DNA of 64,000 nt from Flavobacterium ginsengisoli (lineage in GTDB: Bacteria; Bacteroidota; Bacteroidia; Flavobacteriales; Flavobacteriaceae). A program made the position numbers and the translations under genes. Location of the stretch: positions 3,295,001 to 3,359,000 of the forward strand of contig NZ_CP121110.1 of assembly GCF_029625315.1 (NCBI RefSeq), given 5' to 3'. Shown here in pieces: positions 3,141 through 62,724 of this stretch (the first letter of the stretch is position 1; every line of letters starts with the position of its first letter). The notes beneath the pieces are model-generated. The model was not told the DNA's origin. It made no database searches and saw nothing but the letters and a program-made list of their open reading frames with translations.

Positions 3141-4254
3141 ATGGGATTCAAAACCAAAATACGTTTTATACACAAATGGCTCGGATTAATTTCTGGGCTT
3201 ATTGTTTTTGTAGTTTGTATAACGGGCTGTATTTTTTGTTTTCATGATGAAATAAAAGACATTACAAGAAAAGATTGGCGTTTGGTAGAACCTCAAAACA
3301 AACCTTTTCTATTACCATCTGAATTGCGAGCAAAAAGCAAAAGAAATTGCTCCTGCGAATAAAGCCAGTATGGTTGCTTATTACGGAAAAAACAGATCGG
3401 CAATTGTTTATACCTATTCAGATACAGAAAATTTATATCTCTATTTCAATCCCTACACAGGTAAATATTTAAAAACAGAAAATCCAAAAACCGATTTCTT
3501 TATTATAGTAGAGTACATTCATTTGTATCTGCTCCTGCCCGATTATATCGGAAAACATATTATTGGTGTTTCAACCATCATTTTTATTTTATTGCTTATT
3601 TCAGGAATTATACAATGGTGGCCAAAACGAAGAAGCGACATCAAAAGAAGTTTTACTGTAAAATGGTCCGCAAAATGGCGTCGCGTAAATTATGACTGGC
3701 ACAATACTTCTGGTTTTTACATTTCGTTAATTGCTTTAATTCTAGCCATAACTGGACTTACTTTTACATACGAATGGGTTGGCGACGGAATTTATAAATC
3801 TTTCAATTTCGGTGGAGACAAAGCAGCCGAGACAAAAACGCCTACAATTGATACAACCACTTTCAAATCAAATTCGGCCACAGCAATTGACAAAGCTTTT
3901 ATTCAAACCTTAAAATTACAGCCAAAAGCAGAAATGTTCTTTGTAATGATTCCGCAACAAAAAGGTGACATTGTGAGTACAGGCGCATATCCGCACACAT
4001 TGCGTTACGACCAGCAGAGCAATTATTATTTTCATCCGTCAAGCGGAAAACTTATTCAAAGTCAGACATTCGATAAAAAGAGTTTAGGATTGCAAGTTGT
4101 CGAAATGAATTACGGAATACATACAGGACAAGTTTTAAATCTTCCAGGAAAAATTATCGCTTTTATAGTAAGTCTAATTGCCGCAGCGCTTCCCGTCAGC
4201 GGATTTGTAATTTGGTTTGGAAGAAAAAAGAAATCTAAAAAAGTAAAGCCATAA
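3141..4254 (+). CDS. Second PepSY membrane protein (frame broken by +1 insertion)
   Basis: Once one extra base is removed at 3326-3331 (GCGAGC, expected GCAGC) this reads as a 370-residue PepSY_TM protein. It has an N-terminal helix with 'RFIHKWLGLISGLIVFV', a periplasmic PepSY stretch around 'YLYFNPYTGKYLKT', a helix preceded by 'EYIHLYLLLPDYIGKHI', 'DWHNTSGFYISLI', and a last helix after 'NYGIHTGQVLNLPGK'. The repeated His in these motifs suits heme ligation. As written, translation would stop at 3362. The repaired junction reads Ser-Glu-Leu-Gln-Gln-Lys-Ala-Lys, which is natural, so an error is much more likely than a real break. It probably works with the preceding gene in siderophore reduction. 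Confidence 0.8.
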
Positions 4255-4258
4255 AAAA

Positions 4259-4281
4259 ACCGCTTATTTAAAGCGGTCTTT
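4259..4281. terminator. Terminator between convergent PepSY and MORN genes
   Basis: The seven-base arms accgctt and aagcggt lie just after the PepSY stop and are followed by a short pyrimidine-rich tract. It may serve both convergent genes. Confidence 0.6.
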
Positions 4282-4307
4282 CTATAATTGGTACTGAAAT
4301 TATATGA

Positions 4308-4655
4308 TTAATTTCTGTTTGCTAAAGCATTTTTCTGTAAATTTTTAACCGAACTTACTTTGTTGTCAACATAAGCAACTTCTTTCAAGCTGTCTTCATT
4401 AAAGTAAATCCATTTTCCAGTTTTAACTCCGTCTGCGTATTCTCCAACGGTTTTTTTGTTTCCATTTTCGTCATAAGATACCCAAACACCGTCTAATTTA
4501 CCATCTTTAAAAAAGCCTTCTTGTCGCACTTTACCATTTTCATAGTAATAGGTTGCTTTTACCTTGTTCCCAGCAGCTTCTAATTCAGGCTTTCCTTCTT
4601 GTGCAACTACAATTCCAGAGAACAATATTGCGACTAAAATTACACTCTTTTTCAT
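4308..4655 (-). CDS. Secreted MORN-repeat (YwqK-like) protein
   Basis: A 115-residue protein with a signal peptide ('MKKSVILVAILFSGIVVAQ') followed by repeats of the Tyr-x-Asn-Gly-Lys type: 'YYYENGKVRQEGFFKDGKLD', 'YDENGNKKTVGEYADGVKTG' and 'YFNEDSLKEV'. These are MORN-like repeats of the kind found in proteins automatically named 'toxin-antitoxin YwqK family antitoxin' in Bacteroidota; there is no evidence of a toxin here. It is single-gene length, on the opposite strand to its left neighbour, and probably transcribed alone. It is likely periplasmic or outer-membrane associated, with unknown function. Confidence 0.75.
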   Translation of the reverse strand: MKKSVILVAILFSGIVVAQEGKPELEAAGNKVKATYYYENGKVRQEGFFKDGKLDGVWVSYDENGNKKTVGEYADGVKTGKWIYFNEDSLKEVAYVDNKVSSVKNLQKNALANRN

Positions 4656-8075: not shown

Positions 8076-8270
8076 ATGCGTACAGGTACAGTAAAATTTT
8101 TCAATGAATCTAAAGGTTATGGATTCATTACAGACGAAGAAACAGGAAAAGACATCTTCGTTCACGCTTCAGGAATTAACGCGGAAGAATTACGCGAAGG
8201 TGACCGTGTAAGCTATGAAGAAGAAGAAGGAAGAAAAGGGAAAGTTGTCGCTAAAGTAGCAGTAATCTAA
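8076..8270 (+). CDS. Cold-shock domain protein (CspA family)
   Basis: A 64-residue single OB-fold protein carrying both RNA-binding motifs of the family: RNP1-like 'KGYGFIT' at about 14-20 and RNP2-like 'DIFVHAS' at about 26-32. The start 'MRTGTVKFFNESKGYGFI' is canonical. These proteins bind single-stranded RNA or DNA and act as RNA chaperones. The C-terminal half is unusually acidic then basic ('YEEEEGRKGKVVAKV'), as in other Flavobacterium homologues. It stands alone between two terminators. Confidence 0.95.
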   Translation: MRTGTVKFFNESKGYGFITDEETGKDIFVHASGINAEELREGDRVSYEEEEGRKGKVVAKVAVI

Positions 8271-11948: not shown

Positions 11949-13320
11949 ATGTCACAAAAAATATTATTAGATAAAATCAATATTCCTGGAATTAAAACCT
12001 ACGAAGTTTATCGCCAAAATGGTGGTTACGCTTCTGTAGAAAAAGCTTTAAAAACCCTTACCCCAGACGAAGTTACTGAAGAAGTAAAAAAATCAGGATT
12101 ACGTGGTCGTGGTGGTGCAGGTTTCCCTGCTGGAATGAAATGGAGCTTTATCGATAAAAAATCAGGAAGACCAAGACACTTAGTTTGTAACGCCGACGAA
12201 TCTGAACCTGGAACATTCAAAGATAGATTTTTGATGGAATACATTCCTCACTTATTGATCGAAGGAATGATTACTTCTAGCTATGCTTTGGGCGCTAACC
12301 TATCTTATATCTACATCCGTGGAGAATATATGTGGGTTTTCAAAATTTTAGAAAGAGCAATCGCCGAAGCAAAAGCTGCCGGATGGTTAGGAAAAAATAT
12401 ATTAGGTACAGGTTATGATCTTGAACTTCACGTACACTGTGGAGCTGGAGCGTATATCTGTGGAGAAGAAACAGCATTAATCGAATCATTGGAAGGTAAA
12501 AGAGGAAACCCTCGTATTAAACCACCTTTCCCAGCGGTTTCTGGTCTTTGGGCAAATCCAACTGTGGTAAACAATGTTGAAACAATTGCGACTGTGCCTT
12601 GGATTGTAAACAATTCTGGTGATGATTATGCTAAAATTGGAATTGGACGCTCTACTGGAACTAAATTAATTTCTGCTTCAGGACACATTAAAAATCCTGG
12701 TGTTTACGAAATTGAATTAGGTTTAAGTGTTGACGAATTCATGAATTCTGATGAATATTTAGGAGGAATGTCTTCAAGCCGTCCTTTAAAAGCATTTGTA
12801 CCAGGAGGTTCTTCTGTGCCAATTTTACCAGCTGAATTGATTTTCAAAACAGCAAATGGCGAAGATCGTTTAATGACTTACGAATCTTTAAGTGATGGTG
12901 GTTTTGCTACTGGATCGATGTTAGGTTCTGGAGGATTTATTGTTTACAACGACACTGCTTGTGTAGTAAGAAACACTTGGAACTTTGCTCGTTTTTACCA
13001 CCATGAATCTTGCGGACAATGTACTCCTTGCCGTGAAGGAACAGGATGGTTAGAAAAAATCTTATGGAGAATCGAAAACGGTCAAGGCCGTGAAGAAGAT
13101 ATCGAATTATTATGGAGCATTCAAAGTAAAATTGAAGGAAACACAATTTGTCCACTTGGTGACGCCGCTTCTTGGCCAGTAGCTGCAGACAATTCGTCAC
13201 TTTAGAGATGAGTTCGAATATCACGTTCGTTTCCCAGAAAAAATTAAAAATAGAGATCACTTTGTTGCCGAGCCTTTCTCACAAGTTAAGCATTTAGTAG
13301 GCGGTAAAGTAATCGTATAA
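11949..13320 (+). CDS. nuoF: NADH-quinone oxidoreductase subunit F (frame broken by +1 insertion)
   Basis: This is the NADH- and FMN-binding subunit, 456 residues once one base is removed at 13185-13190 (GCAGAC, expected GCAGC). The NADH site 'GLRGRGGAGFPAGMKW' is at about 50-65, an FMN-site stretch 'GAGAYICGEETALIESLEG' at about 165-183, and the N3 cluster motif 'CGQCTPCREG' at about 357-366 with the fourth Cys in 'NTICPLGDAASWPV'. As written, the frame stops at 13205, just after the fourth cluster ligand. The repaired tail 'IRHFRDEFEYHV' and stop at 13320 match the family end. It is essential for complex I, so a true loss is unlikely. Confidence 0.92.
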
Positions 13321-14447: not shown

Positions 14448-15500
14448 ATGGAAAGTGCATTTATTATAGAAAAAAGTGTTGTAATTGTTGTCGTTTTTGC
14501 GGTAACAATGATTATGGCGATGTATTCTACTTGGGCAGAACGTAAAGTTGTCGCTTTCTTGCAAGATCGTGTTGGACCAAACCGTGCTGGATGGGGAGGT
14601 TTATTACAACCGCTTGCAGATGGTATGAAATTATTCTCTAAAGAAGAGTTTTTCCCAAACACACCAAATAGATTTTTATTCGTAGTTGGACCTGCGATTG
14701 CAATGAGTACTGCTTTGATGACTAGTGCTGTAATTCCGTGGGGAGATCGTTTACACCTTTTTGGAAGAGACATTATTCTTCAAGCTACAGATGTTAATAT
14801 CGCATTATTGTACATTTTTGGAGTTCTTTCTGTTGGAGTTTACGGTATCATGATCGGTGGATGGGCTTCTAACAATAAGTTCTCTTTGATGGGAGCTATT
14901 CGTGCTGCTTCTCAAATGGTTTCTTACGAGGTTGCAATGGGATTATCAATAATCGCTTTATTGATGATGACTGGAACAATGAGTTTAAAAGAAATCTCAT
15001 TACAACAGCAAGGAATGAACTGGAATGTTTTCTATCAGCCATTATCATTCTTAATTTTCTTAATCTGTTCATTTGCTGAAACAAACAGAACTCCTTTCGA
15101 TTTAGCAGAATGTGAAAACGAATTAATTGGAGGTTACCACACAGAATATTCATCTATGAAAATGGGATTCTATTTATTTGCTGAATATGCAAGTATGTTT
15201 ATCTCTTCTACTATTATTTCTGTATTATTCTTTGGTGGATACAACTACCCAGGAATGCAATGGATGGTAGAAAATGTAGGTGTAAATGTGGCTAACTTAT
15301 TAGGTATTGCGGCATTATTTGTAAAAATATGTTTTTTCATATTCTTTTACATGTGGGTACGTTGGACGATTCCAAGATTTAGATATGACCAATTAATGCA
15401 CTTAGGATGGAGAATTTTAATTCCGCTTTCAATCATTAATATCATGATTACGGGTGTTGTTATTTTAAGACACGAAATCTTAGTCGCTTTAGGATTCTAA
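14448..15500 (+). CDS. nuoH: NADH-quinone oxidoreductase subunit H
   Basis: A 350-residue membrane subunit that links the quinone site to the proton-pumping arm. About eight helices are visible. Family landmarks include 'YSTWAERKVVAFLQDRVGPN' (residues 25-44), 'GPAIAMSTALM', 'SFAETNRTPFDLAECENELI' (about 205-224, the acidic loop near quinone), and 'WVRWTIPRFRYDQLM'. Length and gene order are typical. Confidence 0.97.
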   Translation: MESAFIIEKSVVIVVVFAVTMIMAMYSTWAERKVVAFLQDRVGPNRAGWGGLLQPLADGMKLFSKEEFFPNTPNRFLFVVGPAIAMSTALMTSAVIPWGDRLHLFGRDIILQATDVNIALLYIFGVLSVGVYGIMIGGWASNNKFSLMGAIRAASQMVSYEVAMGLSIIALLMMTGTMSLKEISLQQQGMNWNVFYQPLSFLIFLICSFAETNRTPFDLAECENELIGGYHTEYSSMKMGFYLFAEYASMFISSTIISVLFFGGYNYPGMQWMVENVGVNVANLLGIAALFVKICFFIFFYMWVRWTIPRFRYDQLMHLGWRILIPLSIINIMITGVVILRHEILVALGF

Positions 15501-15588: not shown

Positions 15589-16135
15589 ATGTCAATAGAA
15601 ACTATATCATTATCGGGTAGAAAAAAGGTGGTGTCAAATAAGGACATGTCTTTTGTTGAACGATTGTATCTTGTGGCGATTGTAAAAGGTTTAATTATTA
15701 CTGTAAAACACCTTTTTAGAAAGAAAGTTACCATTCATTACCCAGAGCAGGTTCGTGAAATGAGTCCAGTTTATCGTGGTCAGCATATGTTGAAACGTGA
15801 TGAGCAAGGCCGTGAAAACTGTACTGCTTGCGGATTATGTGCTTTATCATGTCCAGCAGAAGCTATAACAATGAAAGCTCGCTGAACGCAAGCCTGATGA
15901 AAAACACTTATACAGAGAAGAAAAATATGCTGAAATCTATGAGATCAACATGCTTCGTTGCATTTTCTGTGGTTTATGTGAAGAAGCTTGTCCAAAAGAT
16001 GCTATTTACTTAACAGAATCTAAAGTATTGGTTCCTGCTAGCTACAATAGAGAGGATTTCATATTCGGGAAAGATAAATTAGTAATGCCTTTAGAAATGG
16101 CTATGAAAAACGCTCAACTTAAAAACGCTAACTAA
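15589..16135 (+). CDS. nuoI: NADH-quinone oxidoreductase subunit I (frame broken by +1 insertion)
   Basis: A 181-residue subunit with two ferredoxin-type [4Fe-4S] clusters (N6a and N6b): 'CTACGLCALSCPAEAI' at about 80-95 and 'CIFCGLCEEACPKDAI' at about 122-137. One extra base at 15877-15882 (GCTCGC, expected GCTGC) separates the two cluster motifs and would stop translation at 15885. The repaired join reads Met-Lys-Ala-Ala-Glu-Arg-Lys-Pro. It hands electrons from NuoG to NuoB. The stop codon abuts the nuoJ start. Confidence 0.93.
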
Positions 16136-17001: not shown

Positions 17002-18887
17002 ATGGATACCAATTTAGCTTTAATTTTAGTTTTAACTCCTTTACTAGGATTTCTAGTAAATGTCTTTTTTGGAAAAAGCTTAGGCAAAACAGTTTCTGGT
17101 GCAATCGGAACTATTGCTGTAGCAATTTCTTTTGTAGTTTCTCTTTTACTTTTTAATCAAATAACTTCAACTGGAAAAGGAATTGAAGTTACTTTATTTG
17201 ATTGGATTCAAATTAGCAACTTAAAAATCAATCTTGGATTTTTATTAGATCAATTATCTGTTCTTTGGTTACTTTTCGTAACTGGAATCGGATCTTTGAT
17301 TCACTTATACTCTATCAGTTACATGCACGATGATGAGAATATGCACAAGTTTTTTGCTTATTTAAATCTATTCGTTTTCTTCATGATTACACTTGTAATT
17401 GGAAGTAACTTATTAGTTCTTTTCATCGGATGGGAAGGTGTTGGACTTTGTTCTTACCTATTAATTGGATTTTGGCATAAAAACCAAGATTACAATGATG
17501 TCGCGAAAAAAGCTTTCATCATGAACAGAATTGGAGATTTAGGTTTATTAATCGGAATGTTCATCATTGGATCGATGTTCTCAACATTAGATTATGCAAC
17601 TTTAAAAACTGCAATTGCTGGAGCTTCAAACTTAAATTTACCATTACTTTCTTTAGCAGACTTTATGTTTGTTTATTGGAGCTTGCGGTAAATCTGCTCA
17701 AATTCCGTTATATACTTGGTTACCTGATGCGATGGCTGGACCAACTCCAGTTTCTGCTTTAATCCACGCAGACTACAATGGTAACTGCTGGTATCTTTAT
17801 GGTAACAAGATTAAACTTTGTTTTTGACCTTGCAACAGATGTTCAATCTGTAATTGCGATTATTGGAGCTATCACTTCATTAGTTGCGCCTACAATCGGA
17901 TTGGTTCAAAACGATATCAAAAAAGTATTAGCTTACTCTACAGTTTCTCAATTAGGTTTAATGTTTTTAGCATTAGGATTTGGAGCTTATGAAGTAGCGG
18001 TTTTCCACGTAATCACTCACGCTTTCTTTAAAGCTTGTTTATTCTTAGGTTCTGGATCTGTAATTCACGGATTACACGGAGAACAAGATATGCGTAACAT
18101 GGGAGGTTTGCGTAAAGCAATGCCAATCACTTTCTGGACAATGTTGATTTCTTCATTAGCAATTTCAGGAGTTCCATTCTTCTCTGGATTCTTCTCTAAA
18201 GACGAAATTTTATTGACTGCATTCCACCACAGTATTCCATTATACGTTGTTGGATCTGTTGCTTCAATCATGACGGCTTTTTATATGTTCCGTTTAATGT
18301 TCTTGACTTTCTTCAAAGAATTTAGAGGAACAGAAGAGCAAAAACACCATTTACACGAAAGCGGTTCATTAATTACTATTCCGCTTATCATCTTAGCTAT
18401 TTTAGCGACTTTTGGTGGATTGATTAGTTTACCTGGAAACAGCTGGTTGAATGGTTACCTTGCTCCTCTTTTCACAAAAGTAGCTGGCGAAGAACATCAT
18501 TTAGGCACAACTGAATACACTTTAATGGGTGTTGCAGTTTTAGGCGGACTATTAGGAATTTTAATTGCTTACGTAAAATACTTTAAACAAGATAATGTTC
18601 CAGAATCTGATGAAAACATTACTGGTTTAAGCAAAGTGTTATACAACAAATACTATGTAGACGAAGTTTACGACGCTGTATTTGTAGCACCAGTAAATAG
18701 TTTATCTAAATTCTTTAGAGATTATATCGAGACAGGATTGTCTGCTCTTGTTTTTGGATTAGGTAAAATAGCAAACGAAATTGCTTTCCAAGGAAAAAAA
18801 TTACAAACCGGAAGTATAGGATTATATCTATTTGTATTTGTTTTAGGACTTTGTGCAATTGTTTCCTATATATTTTTAGCTCAATAA
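17002..18887 (+). CDS. nuoL: NADH-quinone oxidoreductase subunit L (two +1 insertions)
   Basis: This is the large antiporter-like subunit, 627 residues after removing one base at 17656-17661 and one at 17768-17773 (both GCAGAC, expected GCAGC). Landmarks include '[17 protein letters not shown]' at about 141-157, and then across the two errors '[19 protein letters not shown]' and '[17 protein letters not shown]'. '[15 protein letters not shown]' follows at about 305. A long C-terminal amphipathic helix region with a final membrane anchor ('[18 protein letters not shown]') is present. It forms a distal proton channel. As written, it would stop at 17691. Confidence 0.93.
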
Positions 18888-18897
18888 TATTATTACT

Positions 18898-20338
18898 ATG
18901 AACGTTTCTACTATATTAATTATACTTTTAATTGGTGCATTTGCCACTTACTTTTCTGGTGACAAACTAGCTTCAAAAGTTGCTTTACTTTTCAGTTTAG
19001 CCGCTTTAGGATGTTCAATTGTATTATTGAATAATTATAATGCAGGTGAAAATATCAGCGTAATCAACAGCTGGATTAATCAACCAAAAATTTCATTCGC
19101 TTTAAACGGTGATGGACTTGGACTTGCAATGGTTTTATTGACCGTAGCTTTAACTCCGATAATCATATTTTCTTCTTTCGGAAATGAATATAAAAATGCA
19201 AAAGGCTTCTATGCTCTAATCTTGTTTATGGCTTTTGCTATGACTGGAACTTTCTTAGTCGCTGATGGTCTTTTATATTATATTTTCTGGGAGTTAGCAC
19301 TTATTCCAATCTACTTTATTGCTTTGATCTGGGGTAATGGTGATGCTGAAGAGCGCAGAAAAGCGGTGGTTAAATTCTTTATTTACACTCTTGCTGGTTC
19401 GTTATTCATGTTAACTGCTTTTATTTATTTATACCAAAAAGCAGGTTCTTTCTTAATCGAAGATTTATATAAAGTAAACTTGTCTGCTTGCGAGCAATTC
19501 TGGATTTTCTTGGCTTTCTTCTTAGCTTATGCTATCAAAATTCCAATTATTCCTTTCCACACTTGGCAGGCAAATGTGTACCAAAAAGCACCAACTGTTG
19601 GAACAATGCTTTTATCTGGTATCATGCTAAAAATGGGATTGTACAGCGTACTTCGTTGGCAATTGCCACTTGCACCAATCGCTCGCTAAAGAATACATGT
19701 ATATCTTTATTGGTTTAGGAATTGCAGGTGTAATCTACGGTTCAATCGTTGCATTGAGACAAAAAGATTTAAAGAAATTATTAGCTTATTCTTCTCTTGC
19801 TCACGTTGGTTTAATCGCGGCAGGATCTTACACTTTAACTCTAGATGGTTTTAGAGGTGCAGTTATGCAAATGATCGCTCACGGTTTTGTTGTAGTTGGA
19901 TTATTCTTCGCTGCTGAAGTAATTTTCAGAAGATACGAAACTAGAGAAATTGAAGAAATGGGTGGTATTCGTACTCAGTCTCCAAAATTCACATCAATGT
20001 TTTTAATCTTAGTATTAGCTTCTGTTGCATTACCAAGTACATTTAACTTTGTTGGAGAGTTTACAGTATTATACAGTTTATCTCAAATTAATATCTGGTT
20101 TGCTATTCTTGGTGGAACTACTATTATTTTAGGAGCTTACTATATGTTAAGAATGTTCCAGCATGTAATGTTAGGAGAAACAAATGCAAAAACTTTTGCT
20201 GATGTTACACTTAACGAAGGAGTTTCATTTGTTGTAATCATTGCGGTTTTATTGTTTTTCGGATTCTATCCAAAACCAATTACAGATTTGATTACACCAA
20301 GCTTGGAAACCATTTTACAAGTTATCAATAAGAACTAA
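18898..20338 (+). CDS. nuoM: NADH-quinone oxidoreductase subunit M (frame broken by +1 insertion)
   Basis: An antiporter-like proton-pumping subunit, 479 residues after removing one base at 19681-19686 (GCTCGC, expected GCTGC). The key motif 'YYIFWELALIPIYFIALIWG' with its essential Glu is at about 131-150. The Lys-bearing 'LAYAIKIPIIPFHTWQANVY' is at about 210-229, and 'KDLKKLLAYSSLAHVGLI' follows the error at about 292. The repaired junction reads Pro-Ile-Ala-Ala-Lys-Glu-Tyr-Met. Without repair the reading stops at 19689. Confidence 0.93.
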
Positions 20339-20405: not shown

Positions 20406-21797
20406 ATGAATACATTAATAGCTATAACAGGATTGGGTATTTTCTGCCTATTGTTTGAAATTCTTAATTTAAGAAAGGCCATTGTTCCTATTACCATTTT
20501 GGGTTTAATAGGTGTTTTGGCTCTTAATTACTGTGAATTTGGAACAGAACAAAGTTATTACAACAATATGATAGCAGTGAGCAAGTTTTCTACAGCTTTT
20601 TCATCATTGTTTATCGTTTTGACTATATTCCTTGTAGCATTAAGTCATAATTTTTACCACAATCACCCAACGAAAATTTCAGATTATGTGGCAATTAAAG
20701 TTTTCTTACTAGCTGGTGCTGTAGCAATGGTTTCTTTTGGAAACTTAGCAATGTTCTTTTTAGGAATTGAAATCTTATCTATTGCTTTATATGTACTTGC
20801 TGCAAGCGATCGTTTAAATATCAAAAGCAATGAGGCTGGTATGAAATATTTCTTAATGGGTTCTTTCGCTTCAGGAATTATCTTATTCGGAATCTGTTTG
20901 ATTTACGGTGCAATGGGAAGTTTTGACATTAGTGACATTCACGAAAGTGCCCTTTCTGCAGAGTTACCAATATGGTTTCCAATTGGAATGATTTTAATGG
21001 TTGTTGGAATGTTATTTAAAGTAGTCGCAGTTCCTTTCCACTTCTGGGCTCCAGACGTTTACGAAGGTTCTCCTGCTTTAACTACAGCTTTAATGAGTAC
21101 TTTAGCAAAAGTAGTCGCAATTGCAACTCTATTCAAGTTGGTTTCTGGTATGAACTTAATTCCTTCATTAGACAACCAAGACCTTCTACATACATTTGAA
21201 GTTATCGTAGTTATTATTTCTATTGCGTCTATGTCTGTTGGTAATATTATGGCATTAAGACAAGTAAACGTAAAACGTATGCTTGCTTTCTCTGGAATCT
21301 CTCACGCAGGTTTCATGTTAATGACATTATTAACTGTTTCAGCTTCTGCTGGAGTTTTATTATACTACACTGCTGCTTATGCATTAGCTGGTATAGCTGC
21401 TTTTAGTGTAATTTTATATGTTTGTAGAGATCATGACAATGAAGATATTACAAATTTCCACGGTTTAGGAAAAACAAATCCGCTATTGGCTGCAGTTCTT
21501 ACAGCTTCATTATTATCAATGGCCGGAATTCCTATTTTCTCTGGATTTTTTGCTAAGTTATTTTTATTCAACCAAACTATTCAAGCAGGATACATTGGTT
21601 TAGTAATTGTTGCTGTAATTAATTCTATCATAAGTGTTGGATACTATTTCAAACTAATCATAGCAATGTATTCTAAAGAACCAAATCAAGAAAGAACAGG
21701 AAGACCATTCCTTATTTATGCTACAGCTGTGGTGTCAATTGTTTTAAATATTGCTTTAGGTTTATTTCCATCATTAGTTTTAGACTTATTGAAATAA
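20406..21797 (+). CDS. nuoN: NADH-quinone oxidoreductase subunit N
   Basis: The third antiporter-like subunit and last gene of the operon, 463 residues. It shows 'FLGIEILSIALYVLAASDRL' at about 119-138 (channel Glu), 'FKVVAVPFHFWAPDVYEGSP' at about 204-223 and 'RQVNVKRMLAFSGISHAGFM' at about 284-303. About 14 helices are visible. It is preceded by a 67-base spacer with a small hairpin (ttaggatt with aatcctaa) and followed by a strong terminator. Confidence 0.96.
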   Translation: MNTLIAITGLGIFCLLFEILNLRKAIVPITILGLIGVLALNYCEFGTEQSYYNNMIAVSKFSTAFSSLFIVLTIFLVALSHNFYHNHPTKISDYVAIKVFLLAGAVAMVSFGNLAMFFLGIEILSIALYVLAASDRLNIKSNEAGMKYFLMGSFASGIILFGICLIYGAMGSFDISDIHESALSAELPIWFPIGMILMVVGMLFKVVAVPFHFWAPDVYEGSPALTTALMSTLAKVVAIATLFKLVSGMNLIPSLDNQDLLHTFEVIVVIISIASMSVGNIMALRQVNVKRMLAFSGISHAGFMLMTLLTVSASAGVLLYYTAAYALAGIAAFSVILYVCRDHDNEDITNFHGLGKTNPLLAAVLTASLLSMAGIPIFSGFFAKLFLFNQTIQAGYIGLVIVAVINSIISVGYYFKLIIAMYSKEPNQERTGRPFLIYATAVVSIVLNIALGLFPSLVLDLLK

Positions 21798-21957: not shown

Positions 21958-22729
21958 ATGAACTTTAATTCAAAAAATCCATTTTTAAACAGTAAGCGTT
22001 TTTCGTCTAATGCTGAACCAAGAACAGAAGTACACCACGCTCAGATTATTGATTACAATCAAGAAATGACGGTGTCTGGAACAATCAACAAAACAGCAAT
22101 CCTATTCCTAATCTTATGCGGAGCTGCTATGGTGACATGGTGGATGACTTTTAACGGAATAAACCCAATGCTTCCAACAATTGGAGGTGCAATTGTTGGT
22201 TTCATTTTAGTATTAGTTTCTTCATTCAAACCACAATTATCTCCTTACCTAGCTCCAGGATATGCATTATTTGAAGGATTATTCATAGGAGGTATTTCTG
22301 CAATATTTGAATTAAAATTTCCTGGAATCGTAATCAATGCAGTTGGCGCAACTCTTGTTACTTTCTTGGTTTGTTTAGGTTTATATAAATTTAGAATCGT
22401 AAAAGTTACAGAACAATTCAAATCTGTTGTTGTTGTCGCAACATTGGCTATTGCTACTTATTATTTAATTTCTTGGGTTGTATCAATGTTTACAAGCTGG
22501 ACACCTGTTCATTACGGAAATTCTATGATGAGTATTGGTATTAGTGTTTTTGTTATCATCATAGTCTGCTCTTAACCTTTTCTTAGATTTTGATTTAATT
22601 GAAAAAGGCGCAAGAGAAAAAATGCCAAAATTTATGGAATGGTATGGAGCAATGGGATTGATGATTACATTAGTTTGGTTGTATATTGAATTCTTAAGAC
22701 TTTTATCAAAACTTTCTAGCAAAGACTAA
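21958..22729 (+). CDS. Bax inhibitor-1/YccA family membrane protein (frame broken by +1 insertion)
   Basis: A 256-residue protein with seven hydrophobic helices after an N-terminal cytosolic stretch, once one base is removed at 22564-22569 (GTCTGC, expected GCTGC). The helix 'YALFEGLFIGGISAIFELKF' at about 102-121 matches the family's 'YALxEGxxLGxIS' motif, and the repaired end contains 'ALNLFLDFDLIEKGAR' and 'MEWYGAMGLMITLVWLY', the typical BI-1 C-terminal block. Family members are proposed pH-sensitive calcium leak channels or regulators of membrane proteolysis; the bacterial role is not settled. It is a single gene with its own promoter and terminator. Confidence 0.88.
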
Positions 22730-36900: not shown

Positions 36901-36931
36901 AATCGGAAAGAGTCGCGAACAATTTCCGATT
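36901..36931 (+). promoter_or_regulatory. Hairpin between FecR and susC
   Basis: Perfect nine-base arms aatcggaaa and tttccgatt with a 13-base loop in the 130-base FecR-susC gap. There is no T run, so it may be an mRNA processing or stability structure that allows different levels of regulator and transporter. Confidence 0.55.
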
Positions 36932-43065: not shown

Positions 43066-44461
43066 ATGAAGTCTAACACCAACATTTTTCTTGCTTTACT
43101 GCTTTCTTTAGCTTTTATATCGTGCAGTTCTTCTGAAGAAAATCCGAAACCAGATCCAAACACGGGAACAGAAAACGAATATCAGCAATATGGATCCCCA
43201 TTTGATAAAGTTGCGACCAATGAAGATGCCGTAATTTATCAGGTAAACGTACGTTCTTTCAGTCCAGAAGGAAACTTAAAAGGTGTTCAGAAACGACTTG
43301 GAGACATTCAGAAATTAGGTGCAAACGTCATTTATCTAATGCCTATTTATCCTGTTGGAAAAATAAAAATGGCAGGAAAATTAGGTTCTCCTTATTCAAT
43401 TAAAGACTATAAAGCCGTTAATTCTGATTATGGAAACTTAGAAGACCTTCGCGCTCTAGTTACAGAAGCACACAGCAAAAATATGGCGGTAATTTTAGAC
43501 TGGGTTGCCAATCATACTTCTTGGGATAATCAATGGATTACAGCACATCCAGACTGGTACCAGAAAGATGCCAGCGGAAACATTACTATTCCGCCAGGAA
43601 CCAACTGGCAAGATGTTGCACAATTAAATTATACTAATGCAGAAATGAAAAAAGCCATGATCGATGCCATGTCTTATTGGGTTTATAATGCCAATATTGA
43701 TGGTTTCAGATGTGACGCTGCCGATTTTGTTCCTGTAACTTTCTGGTCAGAAGCAATAACTAAAATCCGTAAAATCAAAAACCAAAGAATGATTTTAATG
43801 GCCGAAGGTTCAAGAGCCAATCATTATGATGCTGGATTCGATTATACTTTTGGTTTTGCTTATTTCGGTGCTTTAGAAAAAGTATTCTCAGAAGCGCAGC
43901 CTGCAAGTTATCTTCAAACAGAAAGTTCTAAAGAATACGGACAACTAGATGCTTCAAAAAGAATTGTGCGTTACACCACAAATCACGACGTGAATCTTTC
44001 TGACGGAACTCCACTTGAGCTTTTTGGAGGCAAAAAAGGTTCTTTAGCGAGCATTTGTAATTGCATCAAGCATGAAATCTGTTCCTATGATTTACAATGG
44101 TCAAGAAATTGGCTATAACAAACGCATTGATTATTTTGACAATGTGCCAATAGATTGGTCTACTGCAGATAATGATATGCTTTTAGAATACCAAAAAATA
44201 ATTGCATTTAGAAATTCGAGTGAAGCACTTCGAAAAGGAAAACTAACGGGCTACAGCAGTAACGATGCAAGTGTTTTTACTATGGAAACTACAACTGATA
44301 AAGTCTTAATTGTGGCGAACATTAAAAACAAATCGGTTAAATATACCGCTCCAACAGCTTTGGCCAACACCAATTGGACAGATGCATTAACTGGCAATCC
44401 AATTTCTATTGCTTCAGAAATTAATTTAGAAGCTTATCAATACCTTATTCTTAAAAAATAA
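43066..44461 (+). CDS. SusG-like lipoprotein alpha-amylase, GH13 (frame broken by +1 insertion)
   Basis: A 464-residue surface lipoprotein (Cys in 'AFISCSSSEENP') once one base is removed at 44047-44052 (GCGAGC, expected GCAGC). All GH13 regions are intact: region I 'ILDWVANHTSWDN' (about 143-155), region II 'GFRCDAADF' with the nucleophile Asp near 216, region III 'LMAEGSRAN' with the acid/base Glu near 247, and region IV 'YTTNHDVNLS' with Asp near 308. After the error, 'SVPMIYNGQEIGY' and a short C-terminal beta domain follow. It cuts starch at the cell surface into oligosaccharides for SusCD. As written, the frame stops at 44118. Confidence 0.92.
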
Positions 44462-44490: not shown

Positions 44491-46686
<2,196 letters not shown>

Positions 46687-52465: not shown

Positions 52466-55400
52466 TTACTCCTCAAACAATTCCATCAACTCCAGCGCAC
52501 GTTTTATCGACTTTACATTTTCAAAAGTCAATAACAAACGTAATCCGTTTACGGTTTGTTTTTCTTTCATTTTACAAAGATTACTATGCTTTTGAACGAA
52601 ATTTAAAACATTCCTAAACTTCACCGATTGATAATAATCTGATTGCTGATCTGAGACGAAATAACCGATCATTTTGCCTTGTTTCAGAACTAATTTCTCG
52701 ATTCCAACTTTTGTCGCAATCCATTTTATTCTGATGCTGTTTAATAGAGAAACAGCTTGTTTTGGCAACGGACCAAAACGGTCAATTAGTTTTTTCTCAA
52801 ATTCTTGTAATCCAGCTTCATCTTTTATAGCACCCAATTCGTTATATAAAACCAAACGTTCCGAAACGTTATTGATATATTCATCTGGAAATAAAAGCTC
52901 AAAATCGGCATCGATTTGAATGTCTTTTACATACTCTTTGGTATCGATATCATTTTCTTCAGGATACAAATCTTTGAATTCATTTTCCTTCAATTCTTCG
53001 ATAGCTTCGTTCATGATTTTCTGGTACGTATCAAAACCAATTTCATTAATGAAACCGCTTTGTTCTCCACCTAATAAATCTCCTGCTCCACGAATCTCCA
53101 AATCTTTCATCGCAATGTTGAAACCGCTTCCTAATTCGCTGAATTGTTCCAAAGCCTGAATACGTTTTCTCGCATCTTCAGTCATCGACGAATATGGTGG
53201 ACAAATGAAATAACAAAATGCTTTTTTATTGCTTCGGCCAACACGCCCGCGCATTTGATGCAAATCTGACAATCCAAAATTATTGGCATTATTGATGAAA
53301 ATAGTGTTCGCATTTGGAACGTCCAGACCACTTTCGATAATGGTTGTTGCCACCAAAACATCGAAATCTCCGTTCATGAAACCTAACATCAGTTCTTCGA
53401 GTTTCGCTCCGTCCATTTGCCCGTGTCCGATTCCGACTCTTGCATTTGGAACCAAACGCTGAATCATTCCTGCGACTTCTTTTATATTTTCGATTCGGTT
53501 ATTGATAAAGAAAACCTGTCCGTTTCTTTGAATTTCATACGAAATCGCATCACGGATAATTTCTTCATTAAAACCAACTACATTCGTTTCAATCGGATAT
53601 CGATTTGGTGGAGGCGTTGTAATTACAGATAAATCTCGAGCTGCCATTAATGAAAACTGAAGCGTTCTCGGAATTGGCGTCGCAGTCAAAGTCAACGTAT
53701 CAACATTAGCGAGCAATAGTTTTCAGTTTATCTTTTACGTTTACTCCAAACTTTTGTTCCTCATCAACAATCAGTAAACCAAGGTCTTTAAAAACTACAT
53801 TTTTGTTAACCAATTGGTGTGTTCCAATAACAATATCTAGTTTTCCTTCGGCTAAATCTTTTAAAGTCTGCGTTTTTTGTTTTGCTGTTCTGAATCGGTT
53901 TAAGTAACCAATTGAAACTGGCATATCTTTCAAACGTTCTGAGAAAGTTCGATAATGTTGATAAGCCAGAATCGTTGTCGGAACTAAAACGGCAACTTGC
54001 TTACTATTATCAACCGCTTTAAAAGCAAGCACGAATCGCAACTTCTGTTTTTCCAAAACCAACATCACCGCAGACCAAACGATCCATTGGACGATCACTT
54101 TCCATATCGGCTTTTACTTCTGCTGTCGATTTGGTTTGATCTGGCGTATCTTCGTAAATAAATGAACTTTCTAATTCATTTTGAAGATAACTATCCGGCG
54201 CAAATTGAAAACCTTTTTCTAAACGACGTTTTGCATACAACTGAATCAAGTTGAACGCAATATGTTTTACACGGGCTTTTGTTTTCTGTTTTAAAACTTT
54301 CCAAGCGTTCGATCCTAGTTTATATATTTTCGGAGGCGTTCCGTCTTTTCCGTTGTATTTTGAAATTTTATGAAGCGAGTGAATGCTCACATACACAATA
54401 TCATTATCAGCATAAACCAATTTTATCGCTTCTTGTGTTTTGCCTTCGACTTGAATTTTCTGCAAGCCGCCGAATTTTCCAATTCCGTGATCGATATGCG
54501 TTACATAATCGCCAACCGAAAGTGCAGTTAATTCTTTAAGCGTGATATTCTGTTTTTTCGAATACCCGTTTTTGATATTGAATTTATGATAACGCTCAAA
54601 AATCTGATGATCGGTATAAGCCGTTATCTGATTTTCTTCATCAATAAAACCTTGGTATAAAGGCAATACAATGGTATGATATTGTTTTCTGATATTTTCT
54701 GAATTGGCTTCATCCAAAGATTCAAAAATATCATGAAACCGTTTTGCCTGAGTATCATTCGAACAAAACAGATAATTGACATATCCTTTAAAATGATTGT
54801 CGCTTAAATTATTCAGCAATAAATCAAATTGTTTATTGAAAGATGGCTGAGGCTGAATATGAAATTCAAATTTTTTAGTGGTTTTATAAACAGGTCTTGA
54901 AGCCAATTCTACAACCGAAAAGTCCAAAGATCTTTTTATAAATGACGCCTGATTTAAAAATAATTGTTCTGGCGTAGCATGTTTTATTTCTTTCGACAAT
55001 TTTTCAAAAGCTTCTTCTGCTCTTGCAAATTGTTTGTCTAATTGACTAAAAAGTCCTTCGGTATTTTGAATGAAAACAACTGTTTTTTCGGCAATATAAT
55101 CTAAGAAACTCTCACGGTTTTCCTGAAAAAGTTTATTTTCAACATTTGGGATAATCGTGATTTTTTTATGCGTTTCTACAGATAACTGCGTTTCAACATC
55201 AAAAGTTCTTATGCTATCTACTTCGTTTCCAAAAAACTCAATTCTGTATGGGTGATCGTTTGAAAAAGAGAATACATCGACAATTCCTCCACGAACCGAA
55301 AATTCGCCAGGTTCTGTAATAAAATCTACTCTTTTAAATTCGTATTCGAATAAAACTTCGTTGATAAAATCAATTGAAATTTTATCGTTCAGCGCCACTT

Positions 55401-56748: not shown

Positions 56749-57687
56749 ATGAATCCAAAAATATTGATCATTGGCGCTTGCGGACAGATCGGAACGGAGC
56801 TGACTCAAAAGTCGCGCAAAATATACGGAACAGAAAATGTAATTGCTTCTGACATCCGAAAATTAAATACTGATGTCGTGAATTCGGGACCTTTTGAAGT
56901 GGTCAATGCTTTAGATTTTAATCAGATCGAACATTTGGTAGAAGTGCATAAAATTACCGATGTATATCTGATGGTCGCACTTTTATCGGCAACTGCGGAG
57001 AAAAATCCAGCTTTTGCTTGGGATTTGAATATGAATTCGCTTTTTCATGTTTTGAATTTAGCTAAAGCCAAAAAGATTCAGAAGATTTTCTGGCCTTCGA
57101 GTATTGCTGTTTTTGGACCAACAACTCCAAAAGAAAATACGCCTCAATATACCGTAATGGAGCCTTCTACGGTTTACGGAATCAGTAAACAAGCTGGTGA
57201 AAGATGGTGCGAATATTATCATAATATTTATGGTGTTGATGTTCGCAGTATTCGTTATCCTGGTTTAATTAGCTGGTCTACTCCTCCAGGTGGCGGAACT
57301 ACAGATTATGCAGTTGATATTTTCTATAAAGCTATTGCTGATAAAAAATACGAGTGCTTTTTGTCATCTGAAACCAAAATGCCAATGATGTACATGGATG
57401 ATGCAATTGATGCAACAATTAATATTATGAAAGCACCGGTTGAGGAAATCAAAATACATTCTTCGTACAATTTGGTCGCTATGAGTTTTACTCCAACCGA
57501 AATTGCAAGAGAAATTAAAAAACATATTCCTGAATTTGAGATTACATATAATCCAGACTTCCGCCAGAAAATTGCTGACAGCTGGCCGGCAAGCATTGAC
57601 GATTCTTCTGCAAGAGAAGACTGGGGATGGAATCATAAATTTGATTTAGAAACTATGACAAAAGATATGCTGGAACATTTGGCATAA
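56749..57687 (+). CDS. L-threonine 3-dehydrogenase of the SDR type
   Basis: A 312-residue NAD-dependent extended SDR. The nucleotide motif is 'ILIIGACGQIGTEL' (Gly-x-x-Gly-x-x-Gly, about 5-18), followed by the acidic 'ASDIRKL'. The catalytic Ser is in 'FWPSSIAVFGP' and the Tyr-x-x-x-Lys in 'STVYGISKQAGERW' (about 143-156). The phrases 'SIRYPGLISW', 'PGGGTTDYAVDIF' and 'MPMMYMDDAIDATI' are typical of short-chain threonine dehydrogenases rather than sugar epimerases. The reaction would be L-threonine to 2-amino-3-oxobutyrate. No glycine C-acetyltransferase gene is adjacent. Confidence 0.87.
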   Translation: MNPKILIIGACGQIGTELTQKSRKIYGTENVIASDIRKLNTDVVNSGPFEVVNALDFNQIEHLVEVHKITDVYLMVALLSATAEKNPAFAWDLNMNSLFHVLNLAKAKKIQKIFWPSSIAVFGPTTPKENTPQYTVMEPSTVYGISKQAGERWCEYYHNIYGVDVRSIRYPGLISWSTPPGGGTTDYAVDIFYKAIADKKYECFLSSETKMPMMYMDDAIDATINIMKAPVEEIKIHSSYNLVAMSFTPTEIAREIKKHIPEFEITYNPDFRQKIADSWPASIDDSSAREDWGWNHKFDLETMTKDMLEHLA

Positions 57688-59128: not shown

Positions 59129-59145
59129 ATATCTAAAAGAGAGAT

Positions 59146-61025
59146 TTACTTCACTTCAAAAACGTTATTTGTTTGTTTTACATCAGCCATTAATCCGCTT
59201 GGATCGATCGTGATTTTTTTGATTGACGTCTTGTTCTTCTCAATTGTAAAACTATAGTTTTGTTGTGCCCAAGCCCAGTCTTCTAATACTGTTCTTTTTT
59301 CGTTCGGGTTTGGATTTGGTTTGATGAAGTTCATCATTCTTAACGGAATATAGAATGTCTCAGATGTTCCGTCTGTATAATCAACTTTTAAATCGATAGG
59401 CATTGGCATTCTTCCAATTCTTTCTAAAGAAATTGTTGTTTTTCCTGCATTATCTACCACGTCTTTAATTCCGTAATCAATAGTATTTGTAGTTTGTGTC
59501 CAATCAACTAAATACCAATCTAACTCAGCTCCAGAAACTCTTTCTGCTGTTCTTTTGATATCGTTTGGAGTTGGGTGTTTGAATTTAAAATCGTTGAAAT
59601 ATCTTTTAAAGTTGCATCAACATTCTCTTTTCCGATTACATATTCTAATTGAGAAAGGAAAAGGCTTCCTTTAACATAAGAAGAAATACTGTACGGACGG
59701 TTTTCATCATAACGATCTCCGTGAGTAGTTTGTGGCTGTTCTTTTCCAGAATTTACTAAACTGTAATACGCTTTATAATTCCCTACAAAAGGGTTTGCCT
59801 CTTTTTTATCTCCTTTTAATTCATTCAAAGCACTATCTTCTATGTACGTTGTAAAACCTTCATCCATCCAAGGATGTTTTGATTCGTTTGAAGCTAAAAT
59901 ATGCTGGAACCAAGAGTGTCCTAATTCGTGCGTTGCAGTTCCTAAAATTCCTTCAAGAGTTCCGTTTCCTAGCATTAAAGTACACATTGCGTACTCCATT
60001 CCGCCGTCTCCGCCTTGAATAAATGAGTATTGTTTGTATGGATATGCTCCAACTCTTTGGTTGTAATATTCCATTACTTTAACCATTAAAGGCTCTAGCT
60101 GTTTCCAGTTTGCAGTTGTTTTTTCGTTGTTTTTGTAAAAGAAATGCAAATCTACACCGTTTGGTCCTTTTACAATATCATGGTTGTATTCTTTATCTGC
60201 AGCCCAAGTAAAATCGTGAACATTTGGCGCGATAAAATGCCAAGTAAGTGTTTTTGCTTTTTTAGGATATGTAACAGTTACACCTTCATCTTGGTAACCA
60301 TGTCCGATAGAATTTTTGTCTTGTAAATATCCAGAGCCTCCAATTGTGTAGTCTTTATCGATTGTAATTTTTACATCAAAATTACCCCAAACTCCATGAA
60401 ATTCTCTTGCGATATACGGATCTGCATGCCATCCTTCGAAATCAAATTCGGCTAGTTTTGGATACCATTGTGACATAGAAAGTTCTACTCCTTCAGAATT
60501 GTTTCTTCCAGAACGGCGAATTTGAACTGGAACTTGTCCATCAAAATCTAATGTAAAAGTTGTTTTAGAATTTGGCAAAATTGGTTTAGCCAAAGTTACT
60601 TCTAAGATTGTTCCAGAAACTCTAGTTTGAGCTACAGCACCATCTTGTTTAAAGTTTGTAATTTTTAGATAACCTGTTTCGTTTGGTTTTAAAGTTTCAA
60701 TACGGCTTTGTTTTATTTCTTTTCCGTCGGCTCCTTTAACTTTGTTTACCATTCTTCCGTCTGGATCTTTAATAAAATGAAGACGTGCATCCATTTCGCT
60801 TCCTGGCTGAAAGGCATTTGGATATAAATGATAGAATACTTTTTTCAACGTATCAGGAGAATTATTGGTATATACCAATTCTTGTTTTCCTTTGTACTGA
60901 TAGTTTTTTACATCCATCGAAACCTCCATTTTATAGTCAGCGTGCTGCCGCCAATATGGAGCGCTTTGTGCAAAAGCCGAGTTAAAGCCTAAGCTTAGGA
61001 AAGAAAGTAAAATAATTTTTCGCAT
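59146..61025 (-). CDS. M1-family metalloaminopeptidase, secreted (frame broken by -1 deletion)
   Basis: It reads as 626 residues from ATG 61025, which starts with a signal peptide ('MRKIILLSFLSLGFNSAFAQ'), if one T is restored at 59604-59607 (plus strand). The exopeptidase motif 'QGGDGGMEYAMCTL' and the zinc motif 'ATHELGHSWFQHIL' with the downstream Glu in 'WMDEGFTTYIED' are present. After the error the sequence 'FKHPTPNDIKRTAERVSGAE' and 'LDWYLVDWTQTTNTIDYGI' follows the family. It removes N-terminal residues from peptides in the periplasm or outside. As written, translation would end at 59520. Confidence 0.9.
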
Positions 61026-61089
61026 GTTTATATGTAATAGAAAATGGAAGAGCGTTAGCCCTTCCATTGGATTAATCGTTTATTATAGT

Positions 61090-62724
61090 TTATTTTTTAG
61101 ACATCTTTTCTGCCATTAATAAAGCATTGTAAGCATTTACCATCTTTGCTGTTTTTGATGATTCTATAGAAGAAACGGCTGGTGTTTTTTCGTTAGGATT
61201 TTCGCTTTTCCCTAAAACAACCATTGAAGGAAGGGCAACTCCAGAGTCCATTAAAATCTTTTTAACTTGAGCCGCTTTTAATTTCGGATAGTAAGAACGA
61301 ATTAACGCCGCAACACCTGCTGCATTTGGAGATGCCATTGATGTTCCTTGTAAGTATTTGTATTTATTGTTTGGAACTGTTGCATAAATTTCTTCACCTG
61401 GAGCAAAAACGTCTACGTTTATTTTTCCGAAGTTTGAAAATGAAGCTACAACATTTTCTCCGTATGATTTATTAATCGCTCCAATTGTAATTAAATTACT
61501 TGCAAATTCTTTTACATTGTCTTTAGAGTCGTTTGGATAATTGATGTTTTTTATTTCGTCAATATTATAACCATCGTTACCTGCAGCATGAACAATTAAA
61601 ACGTCTTTCTTTTCTGCATATTTAATAGCATCATAAACCCATTCTTTGTGTGGAGAGAAGCTTTTTCCGAAACTTCCGTTAATTACTTTTGCTCCGTTAT
61701 CTACTGCGTAACGAATGGCTAAAGCAATATCTTTATCGTACTCATCTCCGTCTGGCACGGCTCTAACAGTCAAAATTTCAACGTTATTTGCTACTCCGTC
61801 TCCTCCTAAATTATTTCCTCTAATTTGAGCAATAATTCCGCAACGTGAGTTCCGTGAAGTGCTTTTTCTTTGTCTGGACCAAAAACAACATTATTTCCAT
61901 AATGGTTGTTTTTAATATCTTCTGGATTATCTCCTACGATTTTTCTTCCGTCGTAATCTTTGTTTAAATTGTATTTTAACTGATCTTCAACTTGCTCGCT
62001 GTATTCAGTCAATTCAGATTCTGGATCAAAAGTTGGTCCCGCATTAGTAAAAATCTGAGTCATAATTGCTTTACTTCTTGCCACTTTTGGATCTGTTGAA
62101 GTAATTGCGCTTAAATCTTCGAGTTTATAATCTGATTTATTAAGCTCTTTTTTAATTGTATTATGAACATCAAGTAAAAAATCTGCTTGCTGTTTGTCTT
62201 GAAGAGCCTCTTCATACTTTTTAGTATATTCTGCTAAAGCGAGCTTTGTATTCTGGAGAACCATCATCGGCTTTTTTTACGATGCGAGTCAATTCTAGAT
62301 TTTCGTGAACAGCATCTCCAAGAAAATTCCATCCATGAACATCATCGATAAATCCGTTTTTATCATCATCGATTCCGTTTCCTGGAATTTCTTTTTTATT
62401 AGTCCAAATCATTCCTTGTAAGTCTTCGTGCTCGATATCTACACCAGAGTCTACGATTCCTACAATTACTTTCTGCCCTTTTTTACCTTGTAATAGTTCG
62501 GCATAAGCTCTATCAACGCTCATTCCTGGAATTGAGTCTTTTATCAAATCAAGATGGCTCCATCTTTTTAATTCGTTTTCGCTAAGAGGAGCTTTTTTTA
62601 CAACTGTTGTAGGTGCTGTAATAAACTCTTTTGAAGTAGAAACCTGCGCTTGAACTGTAGCGCTACATCCTGCTAAAACAAGTAGTGCAAAAGCAGATAA
62701 TTTAAGAGGTTTTATATGACTCAT
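61090..62724 (-). CDS. S8 subtilisin-like serine protease, lipoprotein or secreted (two indels)
   Basis: It reads as 544 residues after removing one base at 62239-62244 (GCGAGC, expected GCAGC) and restoring one near 61838-61840. The N-terminus 'FALLVLAGCSATVQA' is a signal with a possible lipobox Cys. The catalytic triad is clear: Asp in 'GIVDSGVDIEHEDL' (about 92), His in 'LHGTHVAG', Ser in 'LQGTSMASPNAAG'. Between Asp and His there is an insert of about 150 residues, mostly helical and charged ('YTKKYEEALQDKQQADFLLD'), longer than in typical subtilisins. It lies 65 bases downstream of its M1 peptidase neighbour's start, and both are on the minus strand: perhaps one operon for peptide use. 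Confidence 0.88.

Follow-up and report, generated by a model that had tools for sequence, protein, structure and literature searches.

The thirteen single-base frameshifts scattered over this part of the Flavobacterium ginsengisoli chromosome are present in the assembly and almost certainly absent from the living bacterium. By far the most probable reading (about 94%) is that they are not mutations but uncorrected, modification-mediated consensus errors, produced at methylated GCNGC pentamers in native single-molecule reads, probably Oxford Nanopore. The artefact is of a known kind, and this genome provides a fresh instance of it.

The assembly consists of one contig of 5.41 Mb, and the window discussed here is a stretch of 64,000 nucleotides from it, which was compared with three close Flavobacterium relatives (G006, G015, and G008). 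Alignment blind to the motif recovered all thirteen frameshifts named in the original prediction as isolated 1-nt insertions inside open reading frames (ORFs) of the relatives, each carrying one extra base against at least two of the three (Table 1). Ten are specific to this genome against all three relatives and three against two of them, G006 being unaligned at 34779 and 44047 and G008 unflagged at 62239. Every hexamer that had been listed is present at its place, with one coordinate, 53710, off by one. All sites but 34779 share, on one strand or the other, the recurrent forms GCGAGC, GCAAGC, or GCAGAC. Just after the sites at 17656 and 17768, the piece of the window from 17778 to 18887 gave a match to NuoL. 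The thirteen do not exhaust the list. Two more insertions, at 8504 (judged against three relatives) and at 40644 (against two), are specific to this genome and lie where GCNGC is missing from every relative; the deletions at 51923, 59608, and 61840 are likewise specific to it, against all three. Even so, the claim that such targeting exceeds chance is borne out: the probability of at least 13 of 15 insertions falling in GCWGC is about 6e-27 by position alone. That removal of one base always restores GCAGC or GCTGC, on the other hand, cannot be inferred, since all three relatives have GCGGC at 17768 and one or two of them have GCSGC elsewhere. Besides the insertions, 15 further GCNGC sites of the window, common to at least two relatives, read GCGAC here with the frame unchanged.

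Table 1. Insertion sites and frame-neutral misreads in the window (window coordinates), and the candidate methyltransferase (genome coordinates)
Feature	Position	Strand	Form	Remarks
+1 site	3326..3331		GCGAGC	Specific against three relatives; GCNGC here in 0 relatives
+1 site	13185..13190		GCAGAC	End of NuoF gene
+1 site	15877..15882		GCTCGC	Within 181-aa ORF of G006
+1 site	17656..17661		GCAGAC	Within 627-aa ORF of G006, first of its two sites
+1 site	17768..17773		GCAGAC	Second in the 627-aa ORF; GCGGC in 3/3 relatives
+1 site	19681..19686		GCTCGC	Within NuoM
+1 site	22564..22569		GTCTGC	Within 256-aa ORF of G006
+1 site	33874..33879		GCAAGC	Within 218-aa ORF of G006
+1 site	34779..34784		GGCTGC	GCTGC intact, extra base possibly outside it; placement ambiguous; no recurrent form; specific against G015 and G008
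+1 site	44047..44052		GCGAGC	Specific against G015 and G008; GCNGC in G008 only
+1 site	53709..53714		GCGAGC	Mfd gene (1121-aa ORF in G006)
+1 site	54025..54030		GCAAGC	Second in the Mfd ORF (1121 aa, G006)
+1 site	62239..62244		GCGAGC	544-aa ORF of G006; specific against G006 and G015
Misread	4630..4634		GCGAC	GCNGC in at least two relatives
Misread	8247..8251		GTCGC	GCNGC in at least two relatives
Misread	14550..14554		GTCGC	Comparison with relatives
Misread	17500..17504		GTCGC	Comparison with relatives
Misread	19258..19262		GTCGC	Comparison with relatives
Misread	21024..21028		GTCGC	Comparison with relatives
Misread	22435..22439		GTCGC	Comparison with relatives
Misread	26687..26691		GTCGC	Comparison with relatives
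Misread	32214..32218		GTCGC	Comparison with relatives
Misread	35954..35958		GTCGC	Comparison with relatives
Misread	36912..36916		GTCGC	Comparison with relatives
Misread	40995..40999		GTCGC	Comparison with relatives
Misread	46270..46274		GTCGC	Comparison with relatives
Misread	56974..56978		GTCGC	Comparison with relatives
Misread	57475..57479		GTCGC	Comparison with relatives
Orphan C5-methyltransferase (PF00145), intact	G000:C1:4007468-4008451 (outside window)	minus		Convergent with vsr gene

Clear evidence for the motif came from 424 kb of this genome aligned to its nearest relative, after removal of alignments shorter than 300 bases, pieces overlapping better ones, and pentamers near alignment ends. 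An extra base was found at 75 of 862 GCNGC sites and at 1521 of 420987 other pentamer positions, an odds ratio of 26 (P about 5e-75, a value limited by the fact that overlapping pentamers are not independent). Frameshifts are thus far commoner at the motif than elsewhere, as had been anticipated for GCWGC (52/641), though GCWGC proved too narrow a definition: GCSGC is hit about as often (23/221), so the motif is GCNGC, and GCWGC was rejected as its complete form. With G015 as the reference, the +1 counts were 25/364 and 14/144. Comparison of G015 with G006, which served as the control, yielded +1 at 0 of 490 GCNGC sites and, when the roles of query and reference were exchanged, at 1 of 511. 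Misreads as GCGAC were commoner still, at about 1.4 per insertion; they affect 104 of the 862 sites, against 3/490 in the control (P about 1e-17) and 1/511 in the swapped control. G006 and G015 share 296 GCNGC sites, of which this genome has 165 intact, 39 as GCGAC, and 33 with an extra base, the remainder being 56 other changes and 3 gaps.

Whether a given site errs was predicted to depend on additional context, and this is indeed the case. The error fraction rises with the number of A/T residues among the four flanking bases, from 0/5 (none) through 2/66, 23/142, and 76/222 to 78/141 (all four), with a trend P of about 5e-19; of the 862 sites, 286 that showed some other change or a gap are left out of these context tables. 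The form of the error follows the flank as well: the next base is A after 46 of 50 GCRAGC and T after 15 of 19 GCAGAC. It is this dependence of frequency and form on the flanking bases that leaves about two thirds of the sites correctly read.

The errors are spread over the genome. The heptamer GCRAGCA occurs 1321 times, as opposed to 318-595 times in five relatives, and GCGAGC occurs 688 times against 397 for its reversed control, a ratio that in the five relatives is 0.7-1.02. A second, smaller region about 2 Mb away has +1 at 8 and GCGAC at 9 of its 72 GCNGC sites, the insertions falling at 8/51 GCWGC and 0/21 GCSGC. Four unaligned genome samples had no GCGAC excess to speak of (33, 56, 28, and 17, against 36, 85, 26, and 17 for the reversed string); for this string the alignment-based count alone is informative. 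There is no sign that the insertions have been purged from genes, with 74 of 75 inside ORFs of the relative, which make up about 89% of the aligned bases. Genes carrying an extra base include those for MreC, SucB, NuoF, NuoL, NuoM, MetF, a MetH N-terminal protein, and AhcY, and gene completeness is 95.5 here compared with 100, 99, and 99 for G006, G015, and G008. On the other side, three GCNGC sites examined in 16S rRNA are intact in every one of the five full copies, although the copies polish each other and two of these sites have a G or C as an immediate neighbour. Some indels specific to this genome lie elsewhere than at the motif, homopolymer contractions among them, and deletions in A6/T6 are in excess, at 72/2305 against 20/1356. 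Deletions at CCGG (6/250 against 0/133) are only suggestive, with a Fisher P of 0.10 and a Poisson P of 0.002 against the genome's own base rate.

The original prediction also called for a cytosine methyltransferase in the strain, and an intact one of the PF00145 family was found, though the suggested likeness to BbvI or ApeKI is unsupported. There are two PF00145 methylases in the genome. One adjoins an HpaII-family endonuclease, a neighbour from which CCGG is the expected target, and on that ground it was rejected as a source of the errors at GCNGC; a PDB search with the HpaII-like enzyme gave nothing useful. The other (Table 1) shares 51-53% identity with methylases from two plasmids in which the methylase gene lies immediately next to one for RE_Bsp6I, and has a well conserved stretch at the expected target-recognition region, a position judged from the alignment. 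M.LlaDII is a C5-methyltransferase specific for GCNGC, and on these likenesses the enzyme is probably of the Bsp6I/LlaDII type and the strain's DNA probably methylated at GCNGC. Four neighbourhoods of plasmid homologues were examined among 25 listed, and a Bsp6I-family endonuclease was present in two; the remaining two, which include that of the best-scoring homologue, have upstream a gene that lacks any Pfam match or encodes a base-excision protein. The chromosomal gene differs from the Bsp6I/LlaDII arrangement in that a convergent vsr gene takes the place of an adjacent endonuclease. The six neighbouring ORFs scanned encode Vsr, a glyoxalase-fold protein, a lumazine-binding protein, PdxA, and two products without a match; as no cognate Bsp6I-family endonuclease is among them, the methyltransferase is an orphan. 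The same enzyme is found in the control relatives G006 and G015, at 95% and 89% identity.

The reading first proposed, that a modified motif gives rise to a systematic error in the consensus, is well supported by events that are bound to a motif, spread over the genome, dependent on flanking bases, all but absent between two relatives with the same methyltransferase, and found together in housekeeping genes. The platform and the signal-level cause are best reconstructed as follows. The orphan C5-cytosine methyltransferase would methylate GCNGC, and the assembly would derive from native-DNA single-molecule reads, probably Oxford Nanopore, without effective short-read correction, called by a basecaller whose training did not cover 5mC in such surroundings. 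Modification would shift the signal at the pentamer, which would then be rendered sometimes with one extra base, mostly as GCGAGC or GCAAGC before A and GCAGAC before T, and more frequently as GCGAC, with its length unchanged.

Might the insertions instead be real? A site-specific process could add one base at methylated GCNGC, for instance through slippage provoked by the methyltransferase or by Vsr, and both the precise specificity of motif and form and the vsr gene adjoining a fitting methyltransferase speak for it. Yet G006 and G015 carry the same methyltransferase and differ by almost no such insertions, the extra bases persist in genes, and the roughly 950 frameshifts extrapolated would fall simultaneously on several subunits of complex I, on MreC, and on SucB. 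The same motif also becomes GCGAC, which would seem to lie beyond a single slippage. We consider such a process highly improbable, and equally so its broader version, a true hotspot in a hypermutated culture, where in AT-rich context the orphan methyltransferase or Vsr provokes both the +1 insertions and changes of NG to GA. The indels off the motif and the homopolymer contractions would suit a further view, on which the frameshifts are ordinary random errors or the outcome of pseudogene decay and the motif merely caught the eye, but this has a negligible probability and is refuted by the motif-blind count. There, 44 1-nt insertions in genes were specific to this genome against both relatives; 35 lay at a relative's GCNGC, and six more, judged by eye, bear the same form. 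These lists draw on mechanical ORFs of at least 80 or at least 100 aa in the relatives and leave out any gap that had a second one within 15-20 columns.

A consensus error at GCNGC with some other origin (m4C, an unknown mark, PacBio CLR reads, or a polishing-model artefact free of methylation) is unlikely. In the portion of PMC9465063 drawn on here, a Mycoplasma agalactiae GCNGC methylase named Bsp6IM was scored as m4C where m5C was predicted, so the chemical mark could differ here too, and GCWGC is given as m4C for some Chloroflexi in the relevant part of PMC6329791. Against this, a search of the genome for PF01555, an N4/N6-type family, found no member, and the fitting enzyme is of the C5 class. 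An artefact free of methylation would be expected to produce GCNGC errors in any genome sequenced alike.

Methylated GCNGC with errors from an untrained basecaller fits what has been described in other bacteria. In Listeria monocytogenes ST87, according to the passages used from PMC10687267, systematic nanopore consensus errors occur at GCAGC/GCTGC and also at GCSGC, just as GCNGC pentamers are affected here; they were attributed to a modification on which the basecaller was untrained, and whole-genome amplification improved genome quality. The Listeria errors are described as mismatches, in a host with an mza system and with M.BatI as the enzyme pointed to, while those here are insertions and GCGAC misreads with an orphan of Bsp6I/LlaDII likeness. 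Since those passages describe mismatches and a tool that ignores indels, the published signature does not as such include the +1 form. Searches of the open-licence literature found no +1 errors at GCNGC in print, and the listings and abstracts they returned showed no direct report of Flavobacterium nanopore frameshifts or GCAGC indel errors. M.BatI, a prophage-borne Bacillus enzyme, is given in the section consulted of PMC8936443 as recognising GCDGC, with full methylation of GCWGC and of one strand of GCSGC, which by description yields the same set of affected pentamers as here. The Dcm case, as summarised in PMC6591954, is of the same kind, with about 70% of consensus errors falling in a 5mC motif that the training data lacked and homopolymers coming next, though motif, enzyme, and taxon differ. 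The target GCNGC is itself given, in the pertinent text of each source, for Bsp6I (PMC9799307), Bsp6IM (PMC9465063), and, as probable, a streptococcal orphan (PMC9176272).

The finding adds a new taxon, a new type of enzyme, and a new class of error to what is known of this nanopore artefact. Extrapolated to the whole of this genome, it amounts to about 950 false frameshifts and about 1,300 false GCGAC strings. The frameshifts, though visible, are the smaller part of the errors. By the genetic code, a change of GCNGC to GCGAC nearly always brings in false amino acids, and because the proteins still look intact, a gene-completeness check misses these misreads. Read in reverse, the error pattern reveals the methylation motif from the assembly alone and points to the enzyme.

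Alignment of 144 kb of the genome (the window with 40 kb on either side) to the three nearest Flavobacterium relatives, and a list of every isolated indel within the relatives' ORFs compiled blind to motif, bore out the thirteen single-base insertions (+1) that the original prediction had placed in the window. Ten are insertions in the studied genome relative to all three relatives and three relative to two of them. Twelve have one of three recurrent forms, GCGAGC, GCAAGC or GCAGAC on one strand, the exception being 34779; at 3326 the motif is absent in every one of the three relatives. The window has 96 places at which two or more relatives read GCNGC; in the studied genome 47 of these are intact, 15 read GCGAC, 10 have a +1 and 24 are otherwise changed. 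Two own-specific insertions in the window, at 8504 and 40644, lie outside any relative's GCNGC and do not match the GCNGC pattern. Own-specific single-base deletions relative to the three relatives occur at 51923, 59608 and 61840, the first two sitting in runs of T, as happens when long reads contract homopolymers.

The relatives used, G006, G015 and G008, are the nearest among the 40 genomes searched; across a 3 kb piece their DNA is 93%, 92% and 86% identical to that of the studied genome. Estimated completeness is 95.5 for the studied genome versus 100, 99 and 99, respectively. The NuoF protein of the window is a 97-99% match to those of Flavobacterium cupreum, daemonense, denitrificans and hydatis.

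The comparison was extended to 544 kb of the studied genome, with 423,665 bases aligning to G006 at 87.8% identity. Insertions were found inside 52 of 641 GCWGC sites, the motif originally proposed, and also inside 23 of 221 GCSGC sites, so that GCWGC is part of the motif and GCNGC the whole of it. The rate in all other pentamers is 0.36% (1521/420987); when all pentamers are ranked by +1, GCCGC/GCGGC come first and GCAGC/GCTGC second. Control comparison of G015 with G006 gave 0/361 GCWGC and 0/129 GCSGC, and with the two swapped 1/378 and 0/133; with G015 as the reference, the studied genome again shows insertions at 25/364 and 14/144. Over the 219,925 bases aligned to both G006 and G015, 44 insertions and 15 deletions of one nucleotide in genes are specific to the studied genome, and 35 of the former but 1 of the latter fall at a relative's GCNGC. 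Judged by eye, six of the remaining nine insertions bear the same form.

A further class of error was invisible to the first reading because it leaves the reading frame unbroken. In the studied genome, 104 of 862 GCNGC sites read GCGAC (or its complement) instead, versus 3/490 in the control and 1/511 with the control reversed, and these misreads are more numerous than the insertions. Where G006 and G015 both have GCNGC (296 sites), 165 sites of the studied genome are intact, 39 read GCGAC, 33 carry a +1, 56 have other changes and 3 are gaps.

The suggestion that extra context matters was well founded. Of the 862 sites, 286 showing other changes or gaps were set aside. In the remaining 576, each either intact or erroneous, the error fraction with zero to four A/T among the four flanking bases is 0/5, 2/66, 23/142, 76/222 and 78/141 (trend, z 8.9). 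An A directly follows GCGAGC/GCAAGC in 46 of 50 cases, and a T directly follows GCAGAC in 15 of 19. A decoder whose signal model is fixed would be expected to behave in this way.

The pattern extends beyond this region. GCRAGCA occurs 1321 times in the studied genome, and 595, 553, 512, 593 and 318 times in the relatives G006, G015, G008, G004 and G005 (genomes of 4.2-5.7 Mb). GCGAGC is found 688 times versus 397 for its reversed control, a ratio that is 0.7-1.02 in five relatives; the excess of GCAGAC is weaker (1515 versus 1201). A second region, some 2 Mb distant, was compared over 47,784 aligned bases: 8/51 GCWGC and 0/21 GCSGC sites carry a +1, and 6/51 and 3/21 read GCGAC. Simple scaling would extrapolate to about 950 insertions and about 1,300 GCGAC misreads in the genome.

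Coordinates on the single contig (C1, NZ_CP121110.1) of the 5.41 Mb studied genome (G000)
Feature	Location	Strand	Content
The window	G000:C1:3295001-3359000		
Orphan C5-methyltransferase, 328 aa, intact	G000:C1:4007468-4008451	minus	PF00145
HpaII-type restriction-modification pair	G000:C1:3188408-3189580 and downstream		PF00145 methylase, then PF09561 endonuclease
Cluster within 20 kb, one GCNGC +1 per gene	G000:C1:2964594-2983252		metF, N-terminal metH, cysH, O-succinylhomoserine sulfhydrylase-like gene

Were the insertions real mutations in the living strain, many genes would have been lost together. Of the 75 +1 sites in the 544 kb, 74 fall within ORFs of G006, affecting 67 of 440; since ORFs make up about 89% of the aligned bases, genes are not spared. 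Twenty of the 67 were named through the copies that are intact in the relative. Matches at E<=1e-70 were obtained for 16 of these, including MreC, SucB, NuoF, NuoM, MetF, the N-terminal MetH protein, CysH, adenosylhomocysteinase and HMG-CoA reductase; Mfd and NuoL in the window also carry a +1. That all these genes are broken at once is not believable in a living aerobe. Moreover, G006 and G015 have the same candidate methyltransferase gene, yet almost no such insertions separate them; real mutation is very unlikely.

Consensus error at a modified motif, the reading first proposed, is the one supported, with the motif widened and the frame-neutral misreads as its larger part. Single-base deletions in A6/T6 occur at twice the control rate (72/2305 versus 20/1356, P 0.002), and CCGG has a weak excess of them (6/250 versus 0/133 in the control); both traces are compatible with long-read data, though they are no proof of nanopore sequencing. 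In low-quality ONT genomes of Listeria ST87, errors are reported to centre on GCAGC/GCTGC, GCSGC included, the genomes improve after amplification, and M.BatI is named as the known enzyme for the error motif (PMC10687267); another source gives its specificity as GCDGC (PMC8936443). For a Klebsiella genome, about 70% of consensus errors are placed in Dcm motifs with the then-current ONT basecallers (PMC6591954). With these precedents the kind of artefact is already known; among the papers listed, our literature searches turned up neither the +1 forms nor an instance in Flavobacterium.

A fitting cytosine methyltransferase, as anticipated, is indeed present. The genome encodes two PF00145 C5-methylases and has no match to PF01555. 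One of the two is followed by an HpaII-family endonuclease, and its expected target is therefore CCGG; its best match in the three nearest relatives is at most 51%. The other, an orphan, is kept in G006, G015 and G008 (95%, 89% and 83% identity). A vsr mismatch-endonuclease gene is convergent with it, and five further ORFs nearby turned up no endonuclease. LlaDII, an enzyme of similar type, targets GCNGC. Two plasmid homologues of the orphan (51-53% identity; Lactococcus cremoris and Streptococcus thermophilus) lie directly downstream of RE_Bsp6I genes; of four plasmid neighbourhoods inspected, the two others, the top match's among them, did not show RE_Bsp6I. A stretch of the variable part, the expected target-recognition region, is well conserved between the orphan and the RE_Bsp6I-adjacent homologues, and the HpaII-type enzyme is only 37% identical in the same comparison. 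Bsp6I-type enzymes are given a GCNGC target in two sources (PMC9465063, PMC9799307). Homology thus makes GCNGC specificity of the orphan enzyme probable in this strain, and this specificity would predict the observed motif, GCSGC included. The Bsp6I/LlaDII-like orphan is the likely source of the errors, consensus error through predicted GCNGC methylation in the strain is supported, and the orphan methyltransferase and Vsr may form a methylation-repair pair.
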